Source: Allobosea robiniae
GTDB lineage: Bacteria > Pseudomonadota > Alphaproteobacteria > Rhizobiales > Beijerinckiaceae
DNA length: 64,000 nucleotides
Assembly (NCBI RefSeq): GCF_900102525.1
Contig: NZ_FNBZ01000005.1
Span: forward strand, 186,001 to 250,000
Reading direction: 5' to 3'
Part shown: in pieces, positions 30,556 to 39,200 of the stretch
Position numbering within the stretch: position 1 is the first letter of the stretch
How the letters are laid out: each line of letters begins with the position of its first letter
Notes under the pieces: generated by a model
Database searches by the model: none
The model's input: the letters and a program-made list of their open reading frames with translations, nothing else
Told to the model about the DNA's origin: nothing
Program-made: the position numbers and the translations under genes

Positions 30556-31485
30556 TTGACGACCCTGCTCTTCACCCACCCGGCAAGCCGTGCGCATGCA
30601 ATGCCGGCGGGCCACCCCGAATGCGCCGACAGGATCAAGGCGGTCGAACAGGCGTTGGAAGCCGAGCGCTTCGCGGCACTGATTCGGCTGGAAGCGCCGC
30701 TCGGCACGCTCGACCAGGTGGTGCTGTGCCACCCCGCATCCTACGCGCAGGCGCTGATCGCCTCCGCGCCTGCGGCCGGGTTCGTGCAGGTCGATGCGGA
30801 CACGCTGATGTCGCCCGGTACGATCGAGGCGGCGTTGCGCGGTGTCGGCGGCGCGGTCGCCGCCGTCGACGAGGTGATGGCCGGCAAGGCGCGCAACGCC
30901 TTCGTCGCGATGCGCCCGCCCGGCCATCATGCCGAGCGCGAACACGCGATGGGCTTCTGCTTCTTCAACCATGCCGCTATCGCGGCGCGCCATGCGCAGA
31001 CGGCGCATGGGGCCGAGCGTGTCGCCATCGTCGACTGGGACGTGCATCACGGCAACGGCACGCAGGACATCTTCTGGGACGATGCCAGCGTGCTCTACGC
31101 CTCCGTGCACGAGATGCCACTCTATCCCGGCACCGGCGCGGCCTCGGAGCGCGGTGCGCAAGGCACGATCGTCAACGCCCCCTTGCGGGCCGGGGACGGT
31201 TCCGACGAATTCCGCGAGGCCTTCGAGACCGCGATCCTGCCGCGGATCGATGCGTTCCGCCCCGATCTCGTGGTGATCTCGGCCGGGTTCGACGCGCATT
31301 GGCGCGATCCGCTCGCCGACCTCAACCTGCGCGAGGCCGATTTCGCCTGGGCGACCTCGAGGCTGATGGAGGCTGCCGACCGCCATGCCGGAGGCCGCAT
31401 CGTCTCGGTGCTGGAGGGCGGCTACGATCTCGACGCGCTGGCGAAGTCGACCGCCGCCCATGTCTCGGCGCTGATGGAGGGCTGA
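30556..31485 (+). CDS. Histone deacetylase family protein (acetylpolyamine/acetoin-type amidohydrolase)
   Basis: 309 residues with the zinc amidohydrolase fold. The motif RPPGHHAEREHAMGFCFFNH (about 117-136) supplies the catalytic His pair; zinc ligands are in VAIVDWDVHHGNGTQ (about 157-171) and ISAGFDAHWRDP (about 237). VLEGGYDL near 290 closes the active site. Bacterial members deacetylate acetylpolyamines or acyl-lysine proteins. The start is TTG, since no ATG or GTG fits the conserved MTTLLFTHP N-terminus. It converges with ribBX. Confidence 0.9.
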   Translation: MTTLLFTHPASRAHAMPAGHPECADRIKAVEQALEAERFAALIRLEAPLGTLDQVVLCHPASYAQALIASAPAAGFVQVDADTLMSPGTIEAALRGVGGAVAAVDEVMAGKARNAFVAMRPPGHHAEREHAMGFCFFNHAAIAARHAQTAHGAERVAIVDWDVHHGNGTQDIFWDDASVLYASVHEMPLYPGTGAASERGAQGTIVNAPLRAGDGSDEFREAFETAILPRIDAFRPDLVVISAGFDAHWRDPLADLNLREADFAWATSRLMEAADRHAGGRIVSVLEGGYDLDALAKSTAAHVSALMEG

Positions 31486-31501
31486 GCGCCCGAAGCGCCG
31501 C

Positions 31502-32782
31502 CTATTCCAGCGGCGACGTCTCGGCGATCTCGATGCCGAAGCCGGAGAGGCCGACGAAGGAACGCGGCGAGGAGGCGAGATTCACGATCGAGCGGACACC
31601 GAGATCGCGCAGGATCTGCGCACCGAGACCGACCTCACGCCATTGCTGAATCCGCAATTCGTCCGAACCTTCCTCGTCGACGCTCTTGATCGGCACGCCG
31701 GCGCTGCCGTCGCGCAGGTAGATCAGCACGCCCTTGCCTTCCTGCTGGAAGCGCCGCAGCGCGCACTGGATCGAGCCGGCGCCGCCGAGCACGTCGGCCA
31801 CTACGTCGGCGCGATGCAGCCTGGCCGGCACCTTCTCGCCATCGCCGAGCTTGCCCATCACGAAGGCGAAATGCTGGGTGCTGTCGAAAGGCGTGACATA
31901 GACATGGCCGGTCACGTCGCCGAACTCGGTCTTGACCGGGAAGGAATGCACGCGCTCGACCAGCTTCTCGCGCAGCTGACGATAGGCGATCAGGTCCGCG
32001 ACGGTGATCTGCTTCAGCCCGTGCTTCTCGGCGAAGGCGGTGATCTGTGCGCCCTTCATCACCGTGCCGTCGTCATTGGCGAGCTCGCAGATGACGCCGA
32101 CCTGCGGCAGCTCGGCGAGCTTGCACAGGTCGACCGCGGCCTCGGTATGGCCGGAGCGCATCAGCACGCCGCCGTCCTTGGCGATGAGCGGGAAGACATG
32201 GCCGGGGCGGACGAAATCGGCGGCGCCCATATTGCCGTTGGCGAGCGCGCGCACCGTGTTGTTACGCTGCTCGGCCGAGATCCCGGTGGTCAGCCCATGC
32301 TTGACGTCGACCGTGATGGTGAAGGCCGTGCCGAGCGGGGCATCGTTTGACGAGACCATCGGATCGAGGCGCAGGCGCCGGGCCTCGCCCGCCGTCAGCG
32401 GCGCGCAGACGATGCCGCAGGTGTTGCGGATGATGAAGGCCATCTTCTCCGGCGTGCAGAGCGAGGCGGCGACGATGAGATCGCCTTCGTTCTCGCGATC
32501 GTCGTCATCGGTGACGATGACGATCTCGCCACGGGCAAAGGCTTCGATGGTCTCGGCGACATTATTGGACATGGCAGCCTCGCGCGGCCCGGACAGGCCG
32601 AGGAAATCATTGGGGGTGACGGCGCCGCCGGTGGCGGCGGTGATGCGCTCGGCGCTTTCGCGGGAGATCCAGGCGGCCGGATCATTGCAGAGCGCGGTCA
32701 CGCTGGCCGGCGACAGGTCGACCTGCCTGGCAAAGGCGCTGCGTGCGATCTTGTTCTGCCGGAGCCAGACGTCGAGCTTCAT
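31502..32782 (-). CDS. ribB: HTH-RibBX: DNA-binding domain fused to 3,4-dihydroxy-2-butanone-4-phosphate synthase with degenerate GCHII domain
   Basis: 426 residues in three parts. Residues 1-62 form an XRE/Cro-like helix-turn-helix (WLRQNKIARSAFARQVDLSP, SVTALCNDPAAW, AERITAATGG). Residues about 70-285 are the DHBP synthase, which makes the four-carbon riboflavin precursor from ribulose 5-phosphate: metal-binding DDDDRENEGDL, RPGHVFPL and MRSGHTEAAVDL. Residues about 290-426 are a GTP cyclohydrolase II-like domain without the zinc-binding cysteines, so it should be inactive in GTP opening; this is the RibBX pattern. An internal ATG at 32572 with GAGG upstream could make an HTH-less form. A dyad lies upstream. 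Confidence 0.88.
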   Translation of the reverse strand: MKLDVWLRQNKIARSAFARQVDLSPASVTALCNDPAAWISRESAERITAATGGAVTPNDFLGLSGPREAAMSNNVAETIEAFARGEIVIVTDDDDRENEGDLIVAASLCTPEKMAFIIRNTCGIVCAPLTAGEARRLRLDPMVSSNDAPLGTAFTITVDVKHGLTTGISAEQRNNTVRALANGNMGAADFVRPGHVFPLIAKDGGVLMRSGHTEAAVDLCKLAELPQVGVICELANDDGTVMKGAQITAFAEKHGLKQITVADLIAYRQLREKLVERVHSFPVKTEFGDVTGHVYVTPFDSTQHFAFVMGKLGDGEKVPARLHRADVVADVLGGAGSIQCALRRFQQEGKGVLIYLRDGSAGVPIKSVDEEGSDELRIQQWREVGLGAQILRDLGVRSIVNLASSPRSFVGLSGFGIEIAETSPLE

Positions 32783-32833
32783 GCCGTGAAACTAATACGG
32801 CGCCACTTCACCTGCAATGAACGATCGATGCAT

Positions 32834-32850
32834 TTTCAGTATTGCTGAAA
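32834..32850. promoter_or_regulatory. Candidate operator dyad upstream of HTH-ribBX
   Basis: TTTCAG-N5-CTGAAA is a perfect 6-bp inverted repeat, with further near-matching flanks (GCAT and ATGC), 52-68 bases before the ribBX start and after the aroC stop. Size and symmetry suit a dimeric XRE regulator. No FMN riboswitch structure is seen in this 104-bp gap. Confidence 0.45.
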
Positions 32851-32886
32851 TGCAAGATGCGACGCAGCGGCAAAAGCCACTCCGCC

Positions 32887-34005
32887 TCACTCCTGGAACG
32901 GCCAGCGCGGCTCGACGACGCCGACCTGTGCGCGATGGCGCAGATACTGGTCGGCCAGCACGCAGGCGACCATCGCCTCGCCGACCGGCACGGCACGGAT
33001 GCCGACGCAGGGGTCGTGACGGCCCTTGGTGAACATCTCGGCCTCGCCGCCGGTGCGCGTCACGGTCGCGCGCGTCGCCAGGATCGAGGAGGTCGGCTTC
33101 ACCGCGAAACGCGCCACGATCGGCTGACCGGTCGAGATGCCGCCCAAAATGCCGCCGGCATGGTTGGAGAGGAAGAGCGGGCGCCCGTCATTGCCGGCGC
33201 GCATCTCGTCGGCGTTGGCCTCGCCGGAAAGCTCGGCCGCGCCAAAGCCCTCGCCGATCTCGACGCCCTTGACCGCATTGATGCTCATCAGCGCCGCCGC
33301 GATCTCGGAATCGAGCTTGCTGTAGATCGGCGCGCCCAGCCCCGCCGGCACGCCCTCGGCGACGATCTCCAGCACGGCTCCGATCGAGGAGCCGGATTTC
33401 CTGACACCGTCGAGATAGCTCTCGAAGAAGGCCGCGGCCTTGGCGTCGGGACAGAAGAACGGGTTGCGGCCGATCTCGTCCCAATCCCAGTTGGCGCGGT
33501 CGATCTTGTGCGGGCCCATCTGGACGAGGGCGCCGCGCACGATCATGCCCGGCACGACCTTGCGGGCGATGGCGCCGGCGGCGACCCGCATCGCCGTCTC
33601 GCGCGCCGAGGAGCGCCCGCCGCCACGATAGTCGCGGATGCCGTATTTGACGTCATAGGTGTAGTCGGCGTGGCCCGGCCGGTACTTGTCCTTGATGTCG
33701 GAATAATCCTTCGAGCGCTGGTCGACATTGTCGATCATCAGCCCGATCGAGGTGCCGGTCGTGACCTGCACGCCGTCGCTCTCGCGGGCGAAGACGCCGG
33801 AGACGATGCGGACCTGGTCCGGCTCCTGGCGCTGCGTGGTGAAGCGCGACTGGCCCGGCCGACGTCGGTCGAGATCGCCCTGGATATCCGCCTCGGTCAA
33901 CGGCAGCAGCGGCGGGCAGCCGTCGACGACGCAGCCGATGGCCGGGCCATGGCTCTCGCCGAAGGTAGTGACGCGGAAGAGATGGCCGAAGCTGTTATGC
34001 GACAT
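32887..34005 (-). CDS. aroC: Chorismate synthase
   Basis: 372 residues. The enzyme makes chorismate from EPSP in the last shikimate step and needs reduced FMN. The family signatures are [17 protein letters not shown] at about 13-29, [20 protein letters not shown] at about 47-66, [19 protein letters not shown] at about 126-144 and [20 protein letters not shown] at about 307. The full length is normal. The next gene on the same strand is ribBX; both depend on flavin chemistry, though co-regulation is only suggested by position. Confidence 0.97.
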
Positions 34006-34381
34006 GGGAGCCCGATACGTTTCCTACCGGCTCTTAAGCCGGATCGGCGCGCGGCGAAACCCCGCATGGGCCGCCACGGCCGTTGACAAGGCCTGCCCTG
34101 GCCGCTTCAACGCAGCCATGAGCCGGACGTCCTGCCCCTCGCGCTCCTGGCGCCCCGGGAGCCCCATCATCGCGGGAGCCTAGCCCCGAGCCGCCCGGCA
34201 GGGCCGCTTCGGGGTCGATCCGGCTTTAGACCAGCCTGCTTGCGGGCGGCGAGCCACATGTTTTCCGACATAGACGGGCTTCCGCGACGAAGCCGCCCCG
34301 CTGCCCCAGCATTGGCCCGCCGCGACCATTCGAGCGCGGCCGGTCCTGTTCGGGGCACTGCGATCAACGGCCAGACTCATC

Positions 34382-35167
34382 ATGAGATTTCTCCGCAGGC
34401 GCCCAGCGCCGGCATCGACGGCCAGCGTCAGCCTTGCCCGCGCGCTGTCCAAGCTCGGCTATTGCTCGCGGACACAGGCCGAGAAGCTGGTGCGCGAGGG
34501 GCGCGTCACGGTCGACGGCCGCAGCGTGCGGCAGGTCGAATTGCGTATCGATCCGCAGCGGGCGCGGTTGACGGTCGACGGCCAGACGGTGACGGCGGTG
34601 CGGCGGATCTATCTGATGCTCAACAAGCCGCGCGGCATCGTGACGACCGCAAGTGACCCGGAAGGGCGCCAGACCGTCTATGCCTGCCTGGAGGGCAAAG
34701 ACCTGCCGCATCTCGCCCCGGTCGGACGCCTGGACATGGCGAGCGAGGGTCTGCTTCTGATGACCAACGACACGCGCTGGGCGCAGCGCATCCTCGATCC
34801 CGCCTCCGGGGTCGACAAGACCTACCATGTCCAGATCGACCGCGTGCCGGACGACGCCTTCATGGCCAGGCTGAGAGAGGGAGCGGTCGATGGAGACGAG
34901 GTGCTGTCGATCCGTTCGGCCGCCCTGCTGCGCTGCGGGGAGCGCAATGCCTGGGTCGAGATGGTGATCGACGAGGGCCGCAACCGGCAGATCAGGCGGA
35001 TCGTCGAAGCGGCCGGCGCCGCGGTGCTGCGCCTCGTCCGGGTCAGGATCGGCGAACTCGAACTCGGCGATCTCGCCAAGGGCGCCGTCCGCGAATTGGC
35101 CCCTGAGGAAACCACACTGCCGCTTGCCGGCTATCCCGTCGGCAAGCTTCGCATCAACGTGGCTTGA
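34382..35167 (+). CDS. 16S/23S rRNA pseudouridine synthase, RsuA/RluB/E/F family
   Basis: 261 residues. An N-terminal S4 RNA-binding domain ([20 protein letters not shown], then EGRVTVDGR) is followed by the synthase domain with catalytic aspartate in [17 protein letters not shown] (about 114-130), KTYHVQID, and [13 protein letters not shown] (about 200). It isomerises uridine to pseudouridine in rRNA. The subclass (RsuA, RluB, RluE or RluF) cannot be fixed. Between aroC and this gene (34006-34381) no other gene is convincing; the space must contain both divergent promoters. Confidence 0.88.
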
Positions 35168-35180
35168 GCAGCCGGCTCCG

Positions 35181-38100
35181 TCAGTGCGCCGGCCCCTTCG
35201 CCGGCGCTGCCGGGGCGCCCTCCCAGCGCGTATGCGCCGGCAGGTTCTCGCCCTTCATGATGACGGTGAGCAGCCCGATCTGGGCGTAATCGCCGACATG
35301 GGTGTCGTAGAGCACGGTCGCGCCGGCGCCGACGCAGACGCCCTTGCCGAGCCGCACGCGGCCGACCTTCATCACCCGATCCTCGTAGAGATGGGTCTGC
35401 AGCGCCGAATGGGCGTTCACCGTGCAGAAATCGCCGACCTTGATGCAGTCGAACTCGGTGATATCGGTCGAGTCGAGCCAGACGCCCTTGCCGTATTTCG
35501 CGCCGAACAGCATCAGGAACCAGGGCAGGAAGGGCGTGCCGCGCAGGTAGTCGAACAGCACCTTGCCGCCGAGGCCCCAGTACATCACCGCGACCGCCTC
35601 GGTGCGCATCGCCCACCACGACCACATCGGCTTCATCACGGGCTTGTAGACGCCCATCATCAGCCATTTCACGGCGGCGCAGATCAGGGCCTGCACGATG
35701 GCGATCGCCATGGCGACGCCCATGAAGGAGAGAACGAGCCCGGTCCAGTCGCCTTCGTTGATCTTCTGCTGCAAGACCATGTCGACCGCGATCGTGCCGA
35801 AGGTGATGAACAGCATCGCCGGGAAGGAGGTATGCAGCGCCTCGAAGACGCCGCGCCCGAACTGCTTGGCGAAGGAGGGCTTGTAGGTCCAGTCGGCGCC
35901 GAGATCGACCTTCTGCCGCGTCGGCAGGCGGATCGGCGGCGAGCCGAACCAGGTGTCGCCGGGCTGCATGCGATCATTGGCGGGCGGCTTGGACTTGATG
36001 CCGATCAGCACGCGATCGGGAATGACGGCGCCCGGCGGCACCACCGCGTCATTGCCGACGAAGACCTGATCGCCCGTGCGCGTCGCGTCGAGGCGCATAT
36101 AGCCGCGGCGCATGTCCTCGTCGCCGAAGACGACCTCGTCGGCGATGAAGTTGCCGGCGCCGATGCCGGTCAGGTCATAGCGTCCCGAGAGATTGGTCGA
36201 GATCTCCGCGCCCTTGCCGATGCTGGCGCCCATCAGTCGGTACCAGGCACGCATATAGATGGTGGCGAAGAGCGAGGAGAGCGTCTCCAGCGTCACCTCG
36301 GTCGCCAGGGCGACCGTCCATTTGCGGGCGTAGAAGCCGGAATGGATCGACCAGGAGCCCGAGGTCACGCGCGGCAGGATCGCCCAACGCAAGGCAGCCA
36401 TCAGCAGCACGGTGAAGGCGATCAGGCCAATCGCGGTCGGCCAGGTCAGGATCGGCAGGAACCAGAGATAGCTGATATCGGTCCAGCCGGCGATGAAGTA
36501 GTCGATCTTGTCGAACAGCCAAAAGGCCGGGAAGATCGGTAGCAGGCTGACCGGCGGCAGCACCACCAGCATCAGGATGTAGAAGGCCGTCATGAGCGCG
36601 CGGCGGCCCGCCGAGGCTTCGGCCTGCGGCGGCAGCGCGGCGAGATCGACCGTGCCGATCTTGCGGCCGGGCGTGCCGTCCCAGATCTCGGCTTCGCCGA
36701 CATGGGCTCCGGGCTGAATGGCTGTCAGGTCGCCGATTTCAGCGTGGTTGCCGATTACCGAATCGTGGCCGAGCACCACGGAGGCGCCGGCCGAGACGTC
36801 CTTGCCGATGGTGATGCGGCCGATCACCAGCTTGTCGCCGATCGCCTCGCCATTGGCGAAGGTGGTCTTGGAGCCGAAGGTCGTGAAGTCGCCGATCTCG
36901 ATCAGGTCGATGGCGCCGGCCTCGTAATCGGAGATGATGACGTCACGCCCGACCTTGGCGCCGAGCAGACGCCAGTAGAAGCGCATCACCGGCGTGCCTT
37001 GCAGCCACTTGATGTGGACCAGCCCGGCGACGCGGGCGGCGAACCACCAGCGGAAATAATAGACGCCCCAGAGCGGATAGACGCCCGGCTTCGTCCGGCC
37101 GAGCACGAGCCATTTCAGGGCGATGGCAATCAGGCCTGTCACGACGATGATCGCGACATAGACGCCGAGCAGCGCGAAAATCTGGCCGAGCAGCGGCAGG
37201 TCCTCGCCCGAGAGGATCATGTAGGTGACGAAGACGCCGAGCCATTGCGCGGTCGCCAGGCCGATGATGACCGGCAGCGCCACCGCCTGCGCAAGCCCAC
37301 AGAGGAAGCGCCGCAGGAAAGGCGGCGGCGTGAAGGACAGGTCCTCGGCCACGGCGATGCCGCGCTCGTCGAGAAGCGCCGCCATCGCCCTGAGCGTACG
37401 CGCGCCATAAACGTCCTGCAACGTGATGCCGGCATAGGCCGGGGTCTCGCGCACGATCGAGATGAAGCGGGCGGCGAGCAGCGAATGGCCGCCGAGATCG
37501 ATGAAGAAATCGGCTTCCAGCGGCAGGCTCGCCGTGCCGAGTACGCGCTTGGCCGCCTCCAGCAGCGCGGCTTCCGTCGCATTGCGCGGCGGCTCCTGCT
37601 CGCCCTCGGCGCTCGGCGCCGTCAATGGCGCCGCCTTGAGCATCTTGCGGTCGACCTTGCCGGAAACCATGCGCGGCAGCGAACCGGCCGCCTCGAAATG
37701 CGCCGGCACCATATAGGGCGGCAGCTTCTCGCGCAGGGCCGCGCGCAGCGCCGGGCCGTCGACCGCGACACCGGGCTCCGGCACGACGAAGGCGACGAGC
37801 CGCTCGATGCCGTCATCCGTGCGCAGCACGACCGCGGCCTGCCCGACGCCGGGTTCGTCGGCGAGCTTCGATTCGATCTCGCCGAGCTCGACGCGGAAGC
37901 CACGGATCTTGATCTGGTCGTCGATGCGGCCGTGGAAGACGATATTGCCGTTCTCGTCGAGGCTGACCGCATCGCCGGAGCGGTAGAGGATCGGATCGCC
38001 TTCGCCTGCGACCCCTGCAAAGGGGTTGGCGATGAACTTTTCGGCCGTCAACTCCGGCCGGCCATGGTAGCCCTTGGCCACGCCGGGGCCGCCGATCAGC

Positions 38101-39200
38101 AATTCGCCCTGCTCGCCCGGCTGGACGAGGCGCAGGTCCTCGCCGACAACGTAAGCCGTGTAGTTCGGGATCGGCTTGCCGATGGTCACGGTCTCGCCGG
38201 GGACGACTTCGGCCGCCGTCGCGACGACGGTCGCTTCGGTCGGGCCATAGGTGTTGAGGATGCGCCGGCCGGGCTTCGACCATTTCTGCACGATCGCGGG
38301 CGGCAGCGCCTCGCCGCCGAGCAGGATCAACTTCAGTGAGGGCACATCGGCCGGCAGGATGCCGAGCAGCGTCGGCACAGTGTCGATGATGGTGACGCCG
38401 GCCTCGTTGAGGATCGCCGGCAGCTTCTCGGCATCGCCCATCATCTCTGGCGAGGCGACGAAGAGGGTCGCGCCGACGAGATAGGGCGTCCAGATCTCCT
38501 CCATCGACAGGTCGAAAGCGACGGAAGCGCCCTGGAACGCGACGTCGTCCGGCCCGAAGCCGTAGAGCGCGTTTCCGGAGCGCAGGAAATGGCAGATGTT
38601 GTGGTGGCTGATGACGATCGCCTTGGGCGTACCCGTCGAGCCGGAGGTGTAGATCAGATAGGCCGGATGGTCGGCGGTGAGCCCGGCCGGACGCGCCGGC
38701 GGCTCGGTTCCGTCAGCACCGGCGGCAAGGCCTTCAGGTGTCCAGACGGCGCGCTCCGTCGCCTCGGCCCGACCGGCCCAGCCGGTGCAGGTGACGATGC
38801 CCTTGGCCTCGGCATCGTCGAGGCAGGTCGCGATGCGCTCGACCGGCGCCTCCGCGTCGAAGGGAATCCAGGCCGCGCCGGCGCGCGTGATCGCGATCTG
38901 CGCGACGAGAAGGTCGATGCCGCGCGGCATCCACAGGCCGACCATGTCGCCCGGGCCGATGCCTGCGAGCTGGAGGCCGCGTGCCTGCCGGCCAGCGGCA
39001 GCCCAGACCTCGGCATAGCTCAGGCGCCGATCGAGATCCGTGAGGGCGGGATGGTCAGGGCGCAGCGCGGCGGTCGCCGCGAAAATCTCGGCCAGCACCT
39101 CGTCCCGAATCAGATCGGGACGCTTCTCGCCTGCCAGCATGGCGAGTGTGTTGGCAGCAGCCGCGTCAGACGCCGCCGACAGCTTCGTCATATCGTTCAT
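35181..39200 (-). CDS. Pls/PosA-type single-module non-ribosomal peptide synthetase
   Basis: 1339 residues. An adenylation domain covers about 40-530: YLIYTSGSTGTPKAIVISHH at about 185, NTYGPTEATV at about 310 and YRSGDAVSLDENG at about 410. A carrier domain follows with the phosphopantetheine serine in IDLGGHSLLAARF, about residue 572. The C-terminal half has several membrane helices (first group about 620-720) and left-handed beta-helix hexapeptide repeats (about 770-840, again near 1020-1080 and 1250-1320). There is no condensation or thioesterase domain. This is the architecture of epsilon-poly-lysine synthetase-like enzymes, which join a single amino acid at a membrane. The product here is unknown. 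Confidence 0.85.
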   Translation of the reverse strand: MNDMTKLSAASDAAAANTLAMLAGEKRPDLIRDEVLAEIFAATAALRPDHPALTDLDRRLSYAEVWAAAGRQARGLQLAGIGPGDMVGLWMPRGIDLLVAQIAITRAGAAWIPFDAEAPVERIATCLDDAEAKGIVTCTGWAGRAEATERAVWTPEGLAAGADGTEPPARPAGLTADHPAYLIYTSGSTGTPKAIVISHHNICHFLRSGNALYGFGPDDVAFQGASVAFDLSMEEIWTPYLVGATLFVASPEMMGDAEKLPAILNEAGVTIIDTVPTLLGILPADVPSLKLILLGGEALPPAIVQKWSKPGRRILNTYGPTEATVVATAAEVVPGETVTIGKPIPNYTAYVVGEDLRLVQPGEQGELLIGGPGVAKGYHGRPELTAEKFIANPFAGVAGEGDPILYRSGDAVSLDENGNIVFHGRIDDQIKIRGFRVELGEIESKLADEPGVGQAAVVLRTDDGIERLVAFVVPEPGVAVDGPALRAALREKLPPYMVPAHFEAAGSLPRMVSGKVDRKMLKAAPLTAPSAEGEQEPPRNATEAALLEAAKRVLGTASLPLEADFFIDLGGHSLLAARFISIVRETPAYAGITLQDVYGARTLRAMAALLDERGIAVAEDLSFTPPPFLRRFLCGLAQAVALPVIIGLATAQWLGVFVTYMILSGEDLPLLGQIFALLGVYVAIIVVTGLIAIALKWLVLGRTKPGVYPLWGVYYFRWWFAARVAGLVHIKWLQGTPVMRFYWRLLGAKVGRDVIISDYEAGAIDLIEIGDFTTFGSKTTFANGEAIGDKLVIGRITIGKDVSAGASVVLGHDSVIGNHAEIGDLTAIQPGAHVGEAEIWDGTPGRKIGTVDLAALPPQAEASAGRRALMTAFYILMLVVLPPVSLLPIFPAFWLFDKIDYFIAGWTDISYLWFLPILTWPTAIGLIAFTVLLMAALRWAILPRVTSGSWSIHSGFYARKWTVALATEVTLETLSSLFATIYMRAWYRLMGASIGKGAEISTNLSGRYDLTGIGAGNFIADEVVFGDEDMRRGYMRLDATRTGDQVFVGNDAVVPPGAVIPDRVLIGIKSKPPANDRMQPGDTWFGSPPIRLPTRQKVDLGADWTYKPSFAKQFGRGVFEALHTSFPAMLFITFGTIAVDMVLQQKINEGDWTGLVLSFMGVAMAIAIVQALICAAVKWLMMGVYKPVMKPMWSWWAMRTEAVAVMYWGLGGKVLFDYLRGTPFLPWFLMLFGAKYGKGVWLDSTDITEFDCIKVGDFCTVNAHSALQTHLYEDRVMKVGRVRLGKGVCVGAGATVLYDTHVGDYAQIGLLTVIMKGENLPAHTRWEGAPAAPAKGPAH

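Follow-up and report, generated by a model that had tools for sequence, protein, structure and literature searches.

The riboflavin-pathway enzyme encoded in this DNA of Allobosea robiniae very probably controls its own gene, as judged by comparison of related sequences. The protein (HTH-RibBX) combines (i) an N-terminal helix-turn-helix (HTH) domain of the Cro/YdaS type, (ii) a DHBP synthase (RibB) domain and (iii) a C-terminal degenerate GTP cyclohydrolase II (GCHII) domain, termed X. It is predicted with considerable confidence to be a single-target autoregulator, which binds the dyad or dyads before its gene and limits its own transcription, most likely as a repressor. The preliminary description of this DNA had proposed a self-regulating riboflavin enzyme, and that proposal is supported by the co-occurrence of HTH and dyad, by conservation and by the covariation of helix and operator. 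Coordinates refer to the window, i.e., the whole stretch of 64,000 nucleotides that was analysed (Table 1).

Table 1. Features of the HTH-RibBX locus, with window positions, strand and basis of assignment.
Feature	Position	Strand	Basis or remark
HTH-RibBX fusion gene, 426 aa	31502..32782	-	ORF and Pfam
Degenerate GTP cyclohydrolase II (X) domain, residues 277-423	31514..31954	-	PF00925 (GTP_cyclohydro2), 92.3 bits; alignment to 4i14
DHBP synthase (RibB) domain, residues 77-267	31982..32554	-	PF00926, 263.7 bits
Internal ATG, residue 71, start of possible HTH-free RibBX	32570..32572	-	sequence
Shine-Dalgarno-like GAGG of internal start	32578..32581	-	sequence
XRE/Cro-type HTH domain, residues 1-61	32600..32782	-	HTH_26, AlphaFold model, structural matches
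Predicted recognition helix, residues 25-33; residue 30 varies with operator	32684..32710	-	model and covariation
-10-like hexamer TAGTTT, 12-7 bases before ATG	32789..32794	-	column counts, 124 loci
Possible operator O2, imperfect dyad TTCATTGCAGGTGAA (minus strand), at expected -35 place	32807..32821		score 7 of 9
Predicted operator O1, exact dyad TTTCAG-N5-CTGAAA	32834..32850		52-68 bases before ATG
aroC (chorismate synthase), next upstream gene	32887..34005	-	PF01264

An XRE-type HTH in frame with DHBP synthase and a zinc-less GCHII domain, as first read from the DNA alone, is confirmed by Pfam and by alignment to the RibBA chain 4i14. The DHBP synthase match is full-length (profile positions 2-191 of 191) and is the single PF00926 match in a profile search of the genome; thus, the cell seems to have no DHBP synthase besides the fusion. 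In the C-terminal GCHII-like domain, the 4i14 stretch VHSECLTGDVFGSRRCDCG corresponds to LHRADVVADVLGG----AG, from which three cysteines, presumably the zinc ligands of 4i14, are absent, as is characteristic of a RibBX. With a DNA-binding domain and a metabolic enzyme in one polypeptide, the protein has the build of an enzyme-regulator fusion of the NadR, BirA or RbkR type. The HTH domain matches HTH_26 over residues 2-52, scoring 24.9 bits (cut-off 22) when the first 70 residues are searched alone and 21.2 bits, slightly below the cut-off, with the whole protein. An AlphaFold model of residues 1-72 (mean pLDDT 85) places helices at residues 3-9, 14-20, 25-33, 41-50 and 57-60 and, together with the profile and structural matches, identifies a five-helix HTH of the XRE/Cro-CI type; the full-length model, poor in the DHBP part (mean pLDDT 67.4), was used for the HTH only. 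The best profile matches of the domain are the YdaS/Cro-type phage proteins 8co2 and 8c7k (E of 0.00095 and 0.0013), of which 8co2 aligns structurally with a Z of 8.0 and an rmsd of 3.7 over 65 residues. None of the Foldseek matches of the short HTH model reached E 0.001. Unlike HTH-RibBX, the two phage proteins have no attached enzyme. By register, residue 30 of the predicted recognition helix is taken to correspond to Gln33 of 434 repressor, a base-contacting residue.

The nearest named relatives of the protein, three among the matches listed (93-97% identity), are all from Bosea. A gap of 104 bases separates the gene from aroC. Also in the window are a histone-deacetylase-domain protein (PF00850; 30556-31485, plus strand), convergent with the ribBX gene, and a 1339-residue protein (35181-39200, minus strand) with AMP-binding, carrier and hexapeptide domains, which presumably resembles the single-module NRPS amino-acid polymerases.

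When homologues were checked as the preliminary description had advised, the HTH extension proved to be conserved in frame across several families. Within the family, the HTH precedes RibBX in 42 of 99 genomes (counted by eye); the match begins at residue 1 or 2 in 41 of these and the remaining one (G003) has a longer linker, while other HTH domains precede RibBX in 3 of the 99. Among the matches listed, the extension occurs in at least six further families of the order (f20, f23, f28, f36, f42 and f50) and, in the class-level sample, in two genomes of another order (G427 and G649). Carriers among the 80 best loci include Microvirga, Xanthobacter, Aquabacter, Ancylobacter, Labrys, Methylocella, Rhodoblastus, Lichenibacterium and four Methylobacterium; the other Methylobacterium and Methylorubrum among the same 80 are without the HTH. 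Its absence from many relatives suggests that the control is dispensable. In five near pairs, dN/dS is about 0.07-0.30 for the HTH codons and about 0.03-0.05 for the DHBP codons, values which indicate that the HTH is constrained, yet evolves faster than the DHBP part. Invariant HTH residues are present among 38 sequences, and the frame is open from the HTH into RibBX in the counted loci, which were chosen by a continuous match. On a poorly resolved tree (156 columns, 136 rows), gain and loss of the fusion amount to 17 changes, 2 of them forced by supported branches. The loci of the other order (L231 and L232) encode proteins with 75% identity to HTH-RibBX of the window over 234 residues and have TTAAG or TTTAG dyads at -40; the presence of HTH-RibBX and dyad in these genomes may reflect lateral transfer of the whole unit.

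Counts given below for 124 distinct loci with the HTH do not include L231 and L232, although these carry HTH and dyad. Rows left out are L065 (truncated), L159 (no HTH at the matched start), L002 (the window itself), sequence duplicates, and L199, L200 and L204 (other HTH classes). The HTH-less L161, L162 and L164 serve the tree only, and the HTH-less loci include L205-L207, with N-termini of doubtful extent. As their motif was unmatched, L087 and L160 are omitted from the internal-start, fusion-origin tree and covariation analyses, and L180 from the fusion-origin tree. Representatives (n = 53) have HTH domains at most 90% identical.

The perfect dyad reported earlier upstream of the gene is exact, and across homologues it is kept with the HTH and missing without it. 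A dyad score of 8-9 of 9 is reached in 116 of the 124 loci, and 5 further loci, all of f23, carry a related dyad, ATTAG-N5-CTAA. The exceptions are L015 and L198 (score 7) and L020, which has an intact HTH with Leu at position 30 and no recognisable dyad, and is the single clear exception. By contrast, none of 64 distinct HTH-less loci scores 8 within 300 bases (8 score 7). Scores in the representatives are 9 in 37, 8 in 13 and 7 in 3, compared to a frequency of 1.15% for a score of 8 or 9 in their dinucleotide shuffles. The simpler pattern TTYAG-N5-CTRAA lies within 150 bases of the start in 46 of 55 named loci with the HTH, and with one mismatch in 7 more; in 24 HTH-less loci (400 bases), it is exact in none and has one mismatch in one, and 0 of 330 coding windows match with at most one mismatch. 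Relatives lacking the HTH, part of the refuting case named in the preliminary description, do exist, but the dyad is absent from them as well.

Among the sequences compared, operator base and recognition-helix residue vary together, imperfectly. Where residue 30 is Ala, Gly or Ser, the variable half-site pair is C/G (CTGAAA) in 59 of 59 loci. With Gln or His (n = 63), the pair is T/A (CTAAAA) in 41, C/G (CTGAAA) in 6 and other or mixed in 9, while the site is weak in 7 (5 of them from f23); of two loci with Leu, one has G/C and one has no site. Among positions 2-36 (85 loci), residue 30 is the most informative on the operator base. A phylogenetic test of the covariation found 6 changes of each trait and 6 independent pairs in all, of which only 2 are on well-supported branches, too few for the test. 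Diverged HTH domains come with other dyads: six f23 loci have a shifted, ATTAGC-type dyad, and G427 has TTAAG-N5-CTTAA. Three genomes encode RibBX fused to other HTH classes (G048, G023 and G007; loci L228, L229 and L230, respectively). An HTH_3-class domain is accompanied by TTGCG-N5-CGCAA dyads in G048 and G007, the latter with an additional perfect GCTTGCG-N5-CGCAAGC dyad at -40; for yet another HTH, that of G023, no dyad with arms of at least 6 is present in 200 bases. These fusions apparently represent convergent replacement of HTH and operator.

The sites are arranged in a recurrent layout; in the window it includes O2 and the -10-like hexamer, neither of which the preliminary description mentions. 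A site scoring at least 7 starts at -46 to -34 in 92 of the 124 loci and at -95 to -50 in 86 (56 of the 86 at -65 to -69), with 0 of 263 coding controls for each position. The O2-type sites lie at -38 to -43. Both sites score at least 7 in 62 loci, with 26-29 bases between their starts in 37 of the 62. Immediately before the ATG, T prevails at -12 (90 of 124 loci), A at -11 (99), T at -7 (66) and C at -1 (105). Together they give a -10-like box, TAnnnT, from which transcription would begin at the A of the ATG itself. A -35 hexamer was not identified. A Shine-Dalgarno match of at least 4 precedes the HTH start in 3 of 53 representatives and 204 of 883 in-frame start codons of the gene body. Thus, with a -10-like box right before the ATG and no Shine-Dalgarno, the full-length protein is probably read from a leaderless mRNA.

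A second start follows within the gene. The internal ATG with its own GAGG, pointed out in the preliminary description, is present at residue 71, and an in-frame start with a Shine-Dalgarno between the HTH and DHBP domains is conserved in 50 of the 53 representatives (ATG in 31, GTG in 17 and TTG in 2; L096, L135 and L153 are without it), compared to 161 of 537 gene-body control windows of equal length (30%). The three fusions to other HTH classes all lack such a start. Inspection by eye of 24 HTH-less loci shows 14 in which the nearest start codon is at about this place; thus, the internal start may be ancestral, kept through use or partly as a relic. Two forms of HTH-RibBX may be produced.

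In the 5.28-Mb genome, there is one exact copy of the dyad, before the HTH-RibBX gene. Allowing one mismatch adds 6 sites (2 for a reversed control pattern). A strict 17-base form, TTTYAGTNNNRCTRAAA, was matched in 10 of 15 genomes from five families. Each of the 10 has a single site, located 26-70 bases before ribBX, and the reversed control has no match in any of the 15. Of the five genomes without the strict form, G024 is HTH-less and the others (G084, G010, G051 and G029) have 15-base, score-9 dyads outside the stricter pattern. A riboflavin regulon was considered and rejected, as neither ribH1 nor ribH2 is near a listed site. The intragenic position of the six one-mismatch sites is uninformative as a criterion, since long open frames span the true site as well.

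Feedback on riboflavin genes in bacteria usually takes the form of an FMN riboswitch. No such element was detected by cmscan at the HTH-RibBX gene (window 31000-34500). FMN riboswitches occur in 7 of 99 genomes of the family (6 above the cut-off) and in 100 of 297 genomes of the order; riboswitch and HTH as alternatives gave no useful test, as the riboswitch is rare in the family. In eight HTH-bearing genomes with a riboswitch that were compared by eye (G000, G139, G183, G212, G290, G361, G376 and G383), it is on another contig or, in G000, the genome of the window, 84 kb off. The G000 element (RF00050, 102.6 bits, G000:C19:303152-303296), which lies outside the window and is the one RF00050 listed for that genome, directly precedes a second ribH (lumazine synthase), and ribBX (L115) is fused to the HTH, which would make two kinds of feedback control within a single pathway. 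In G045, which also carries HTH-RibBX, a riboswitch-like match below the cut-off (32.3 bits, G045:C3:2992604-2993489) lies just before a second, HTH-less ribB-like gene.

RibB enzymes are dimers; thus, two HTH domains of HTH-RibBX would face a palindrome. The dimer is proposed to bind O1 and O2 upstream of the HTH-RibBX gene, in the -35 region of the predicted promoter, and the bound protein would limit transcription of that gene. The -10 box of this promoter ends seven bases short of the ATG. A leaderless mRNA would give the full-length protein, and the internal start would give an HTH-free enzyme, for instance on read-through from aroC. A ligand may act through the RibB or X domain, and the degenerate GCHII part may sense GTP, FMN or another compound. 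Published work describes the X domain as a regulator of RibB in Shewanella (PMC10012899) and, for S. meliloti, loss of ribBA as leading to less flavin secretion and no auxotrophy (PMC9478397). A more elaborate model, offered tentatively and given somewhat less than even chances, is that the ratio of two proteins is part of the control: a leaderless, DNA-binding repressor enzyme and an HTH-free form, with mixed dimers that weaken repression and a dead GCHII domain that senses a pathway nucleotide. As part of this tentative model, HTH and operator would travel as a unit that is lost, or replaced by other HTH classes, in lineages.

The HTH might instead serve structure or protein interaction, with the dyad bound by a different regulator of ribBX. 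Many relatives manage without the HTH, and Wolbachia is reported to have XRE regulators that act on a riboflavin gene as separate proteins (PMC3518464). This explanation is nevertheless very improbable: dyad and HTH are present and missing together, the variable operator base tracks a recognition-helix residue, different HTH classes have different dyads, and one would not expect the site of a separate regulator to disappear together with the HTH. Even harder to credit is use of the internal start alone, in which case the HTH stretch would go untranslated, as a leader, and the dyad would function at the DNA or RNA level. The prevalence of the Shine-Dalgarno at the internal start and its rarity at the HTH start would agree with such a leader, but the constraint on the HTH codons, the invariant HTH residues, the open frame into RibBX (in loci selected for continuity) and a -10-like box that fits leaderless translation from the HTH ATG argue against it.

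It is unlikely, if less so, that the fusion activates rather than represses or regulates other genes too. The sign of regulation is not readable from sequence, half of the loci (62 of 124) have two sites, and O1 lies near -67, where an activator could bind; O2, however, is at the expected -35 element, the usual place for a repressor. For other targets, the six one-mismatch sites against two for the reversed control may be cited, but exact or strict sites occur at the HTH-RibBX gene only. A self-regulating enzyme dedicated to its own gene, probably a repressor, is the favoured reading.

NadR and BirA are cofactor enzymes in which an N-terminal HTH serves to repress biosynthetic genes; they belong to other pathways and control operons elsewhere, whereas HTH-RibBX apparently controls only itself. 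The RibBX of Shewanella, Aeromonas and Bradyrhizobium ORS285 (Brutinel et al. 2013) likewise joins DHBP synthase to a GCHII-like domain without zinc-binding residues, and the passages that cite this work mention no N-terminal DNA-binding domain or self-operator. Archaeal RbkR (Rodionova et al. 2017, as cited in PMC8305020) also unites a riboflavin-pathway enzyme with an HTH and is listed there as 'bifunctional as gene regulator and enzyme'; it differs in being a riboflavin kinase of archaea. The HTH-less RbkR homologue, MJ0056, is of another organism, whereas the internal start of HTH-RibBX may give an HTH-free form from one gene. The Wolbachia regulators of ribA, as described (PMC3518464), link an XRE HTH to a riboflavin gene in an alphaproteobacterium, but are separate proteins. 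Among the top-ranked papers listed by literature searches, judged by title and abstract opening and with subscription papers largely outside their range, none describes the joining of an HTH to DHBP synthase or the regulation of such a protein, and a term search of a 2025 paper on XRE palindromes found neither 'riboflavin' nor 'ribB'. Stand-alone XRE riboflavin regulators and enzymes fused to regulators are already known.

With FMN riboswitches rare in the family and none at the gene, self-regulation offers a concrete answer on riboflavin control, one that would cover many genera, among them Bosea, Microvirga, Xanthobacter, Labrys, Methylocella and some Methylobacterium. If true, HTH-RibBX would add another example to the enzymes that double as their own transcription factors. 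The natural pairs of helix and operator let specificity be probed by swaps, and the fusion provides a setting for asking what the zinc-less GCHII domain senses.
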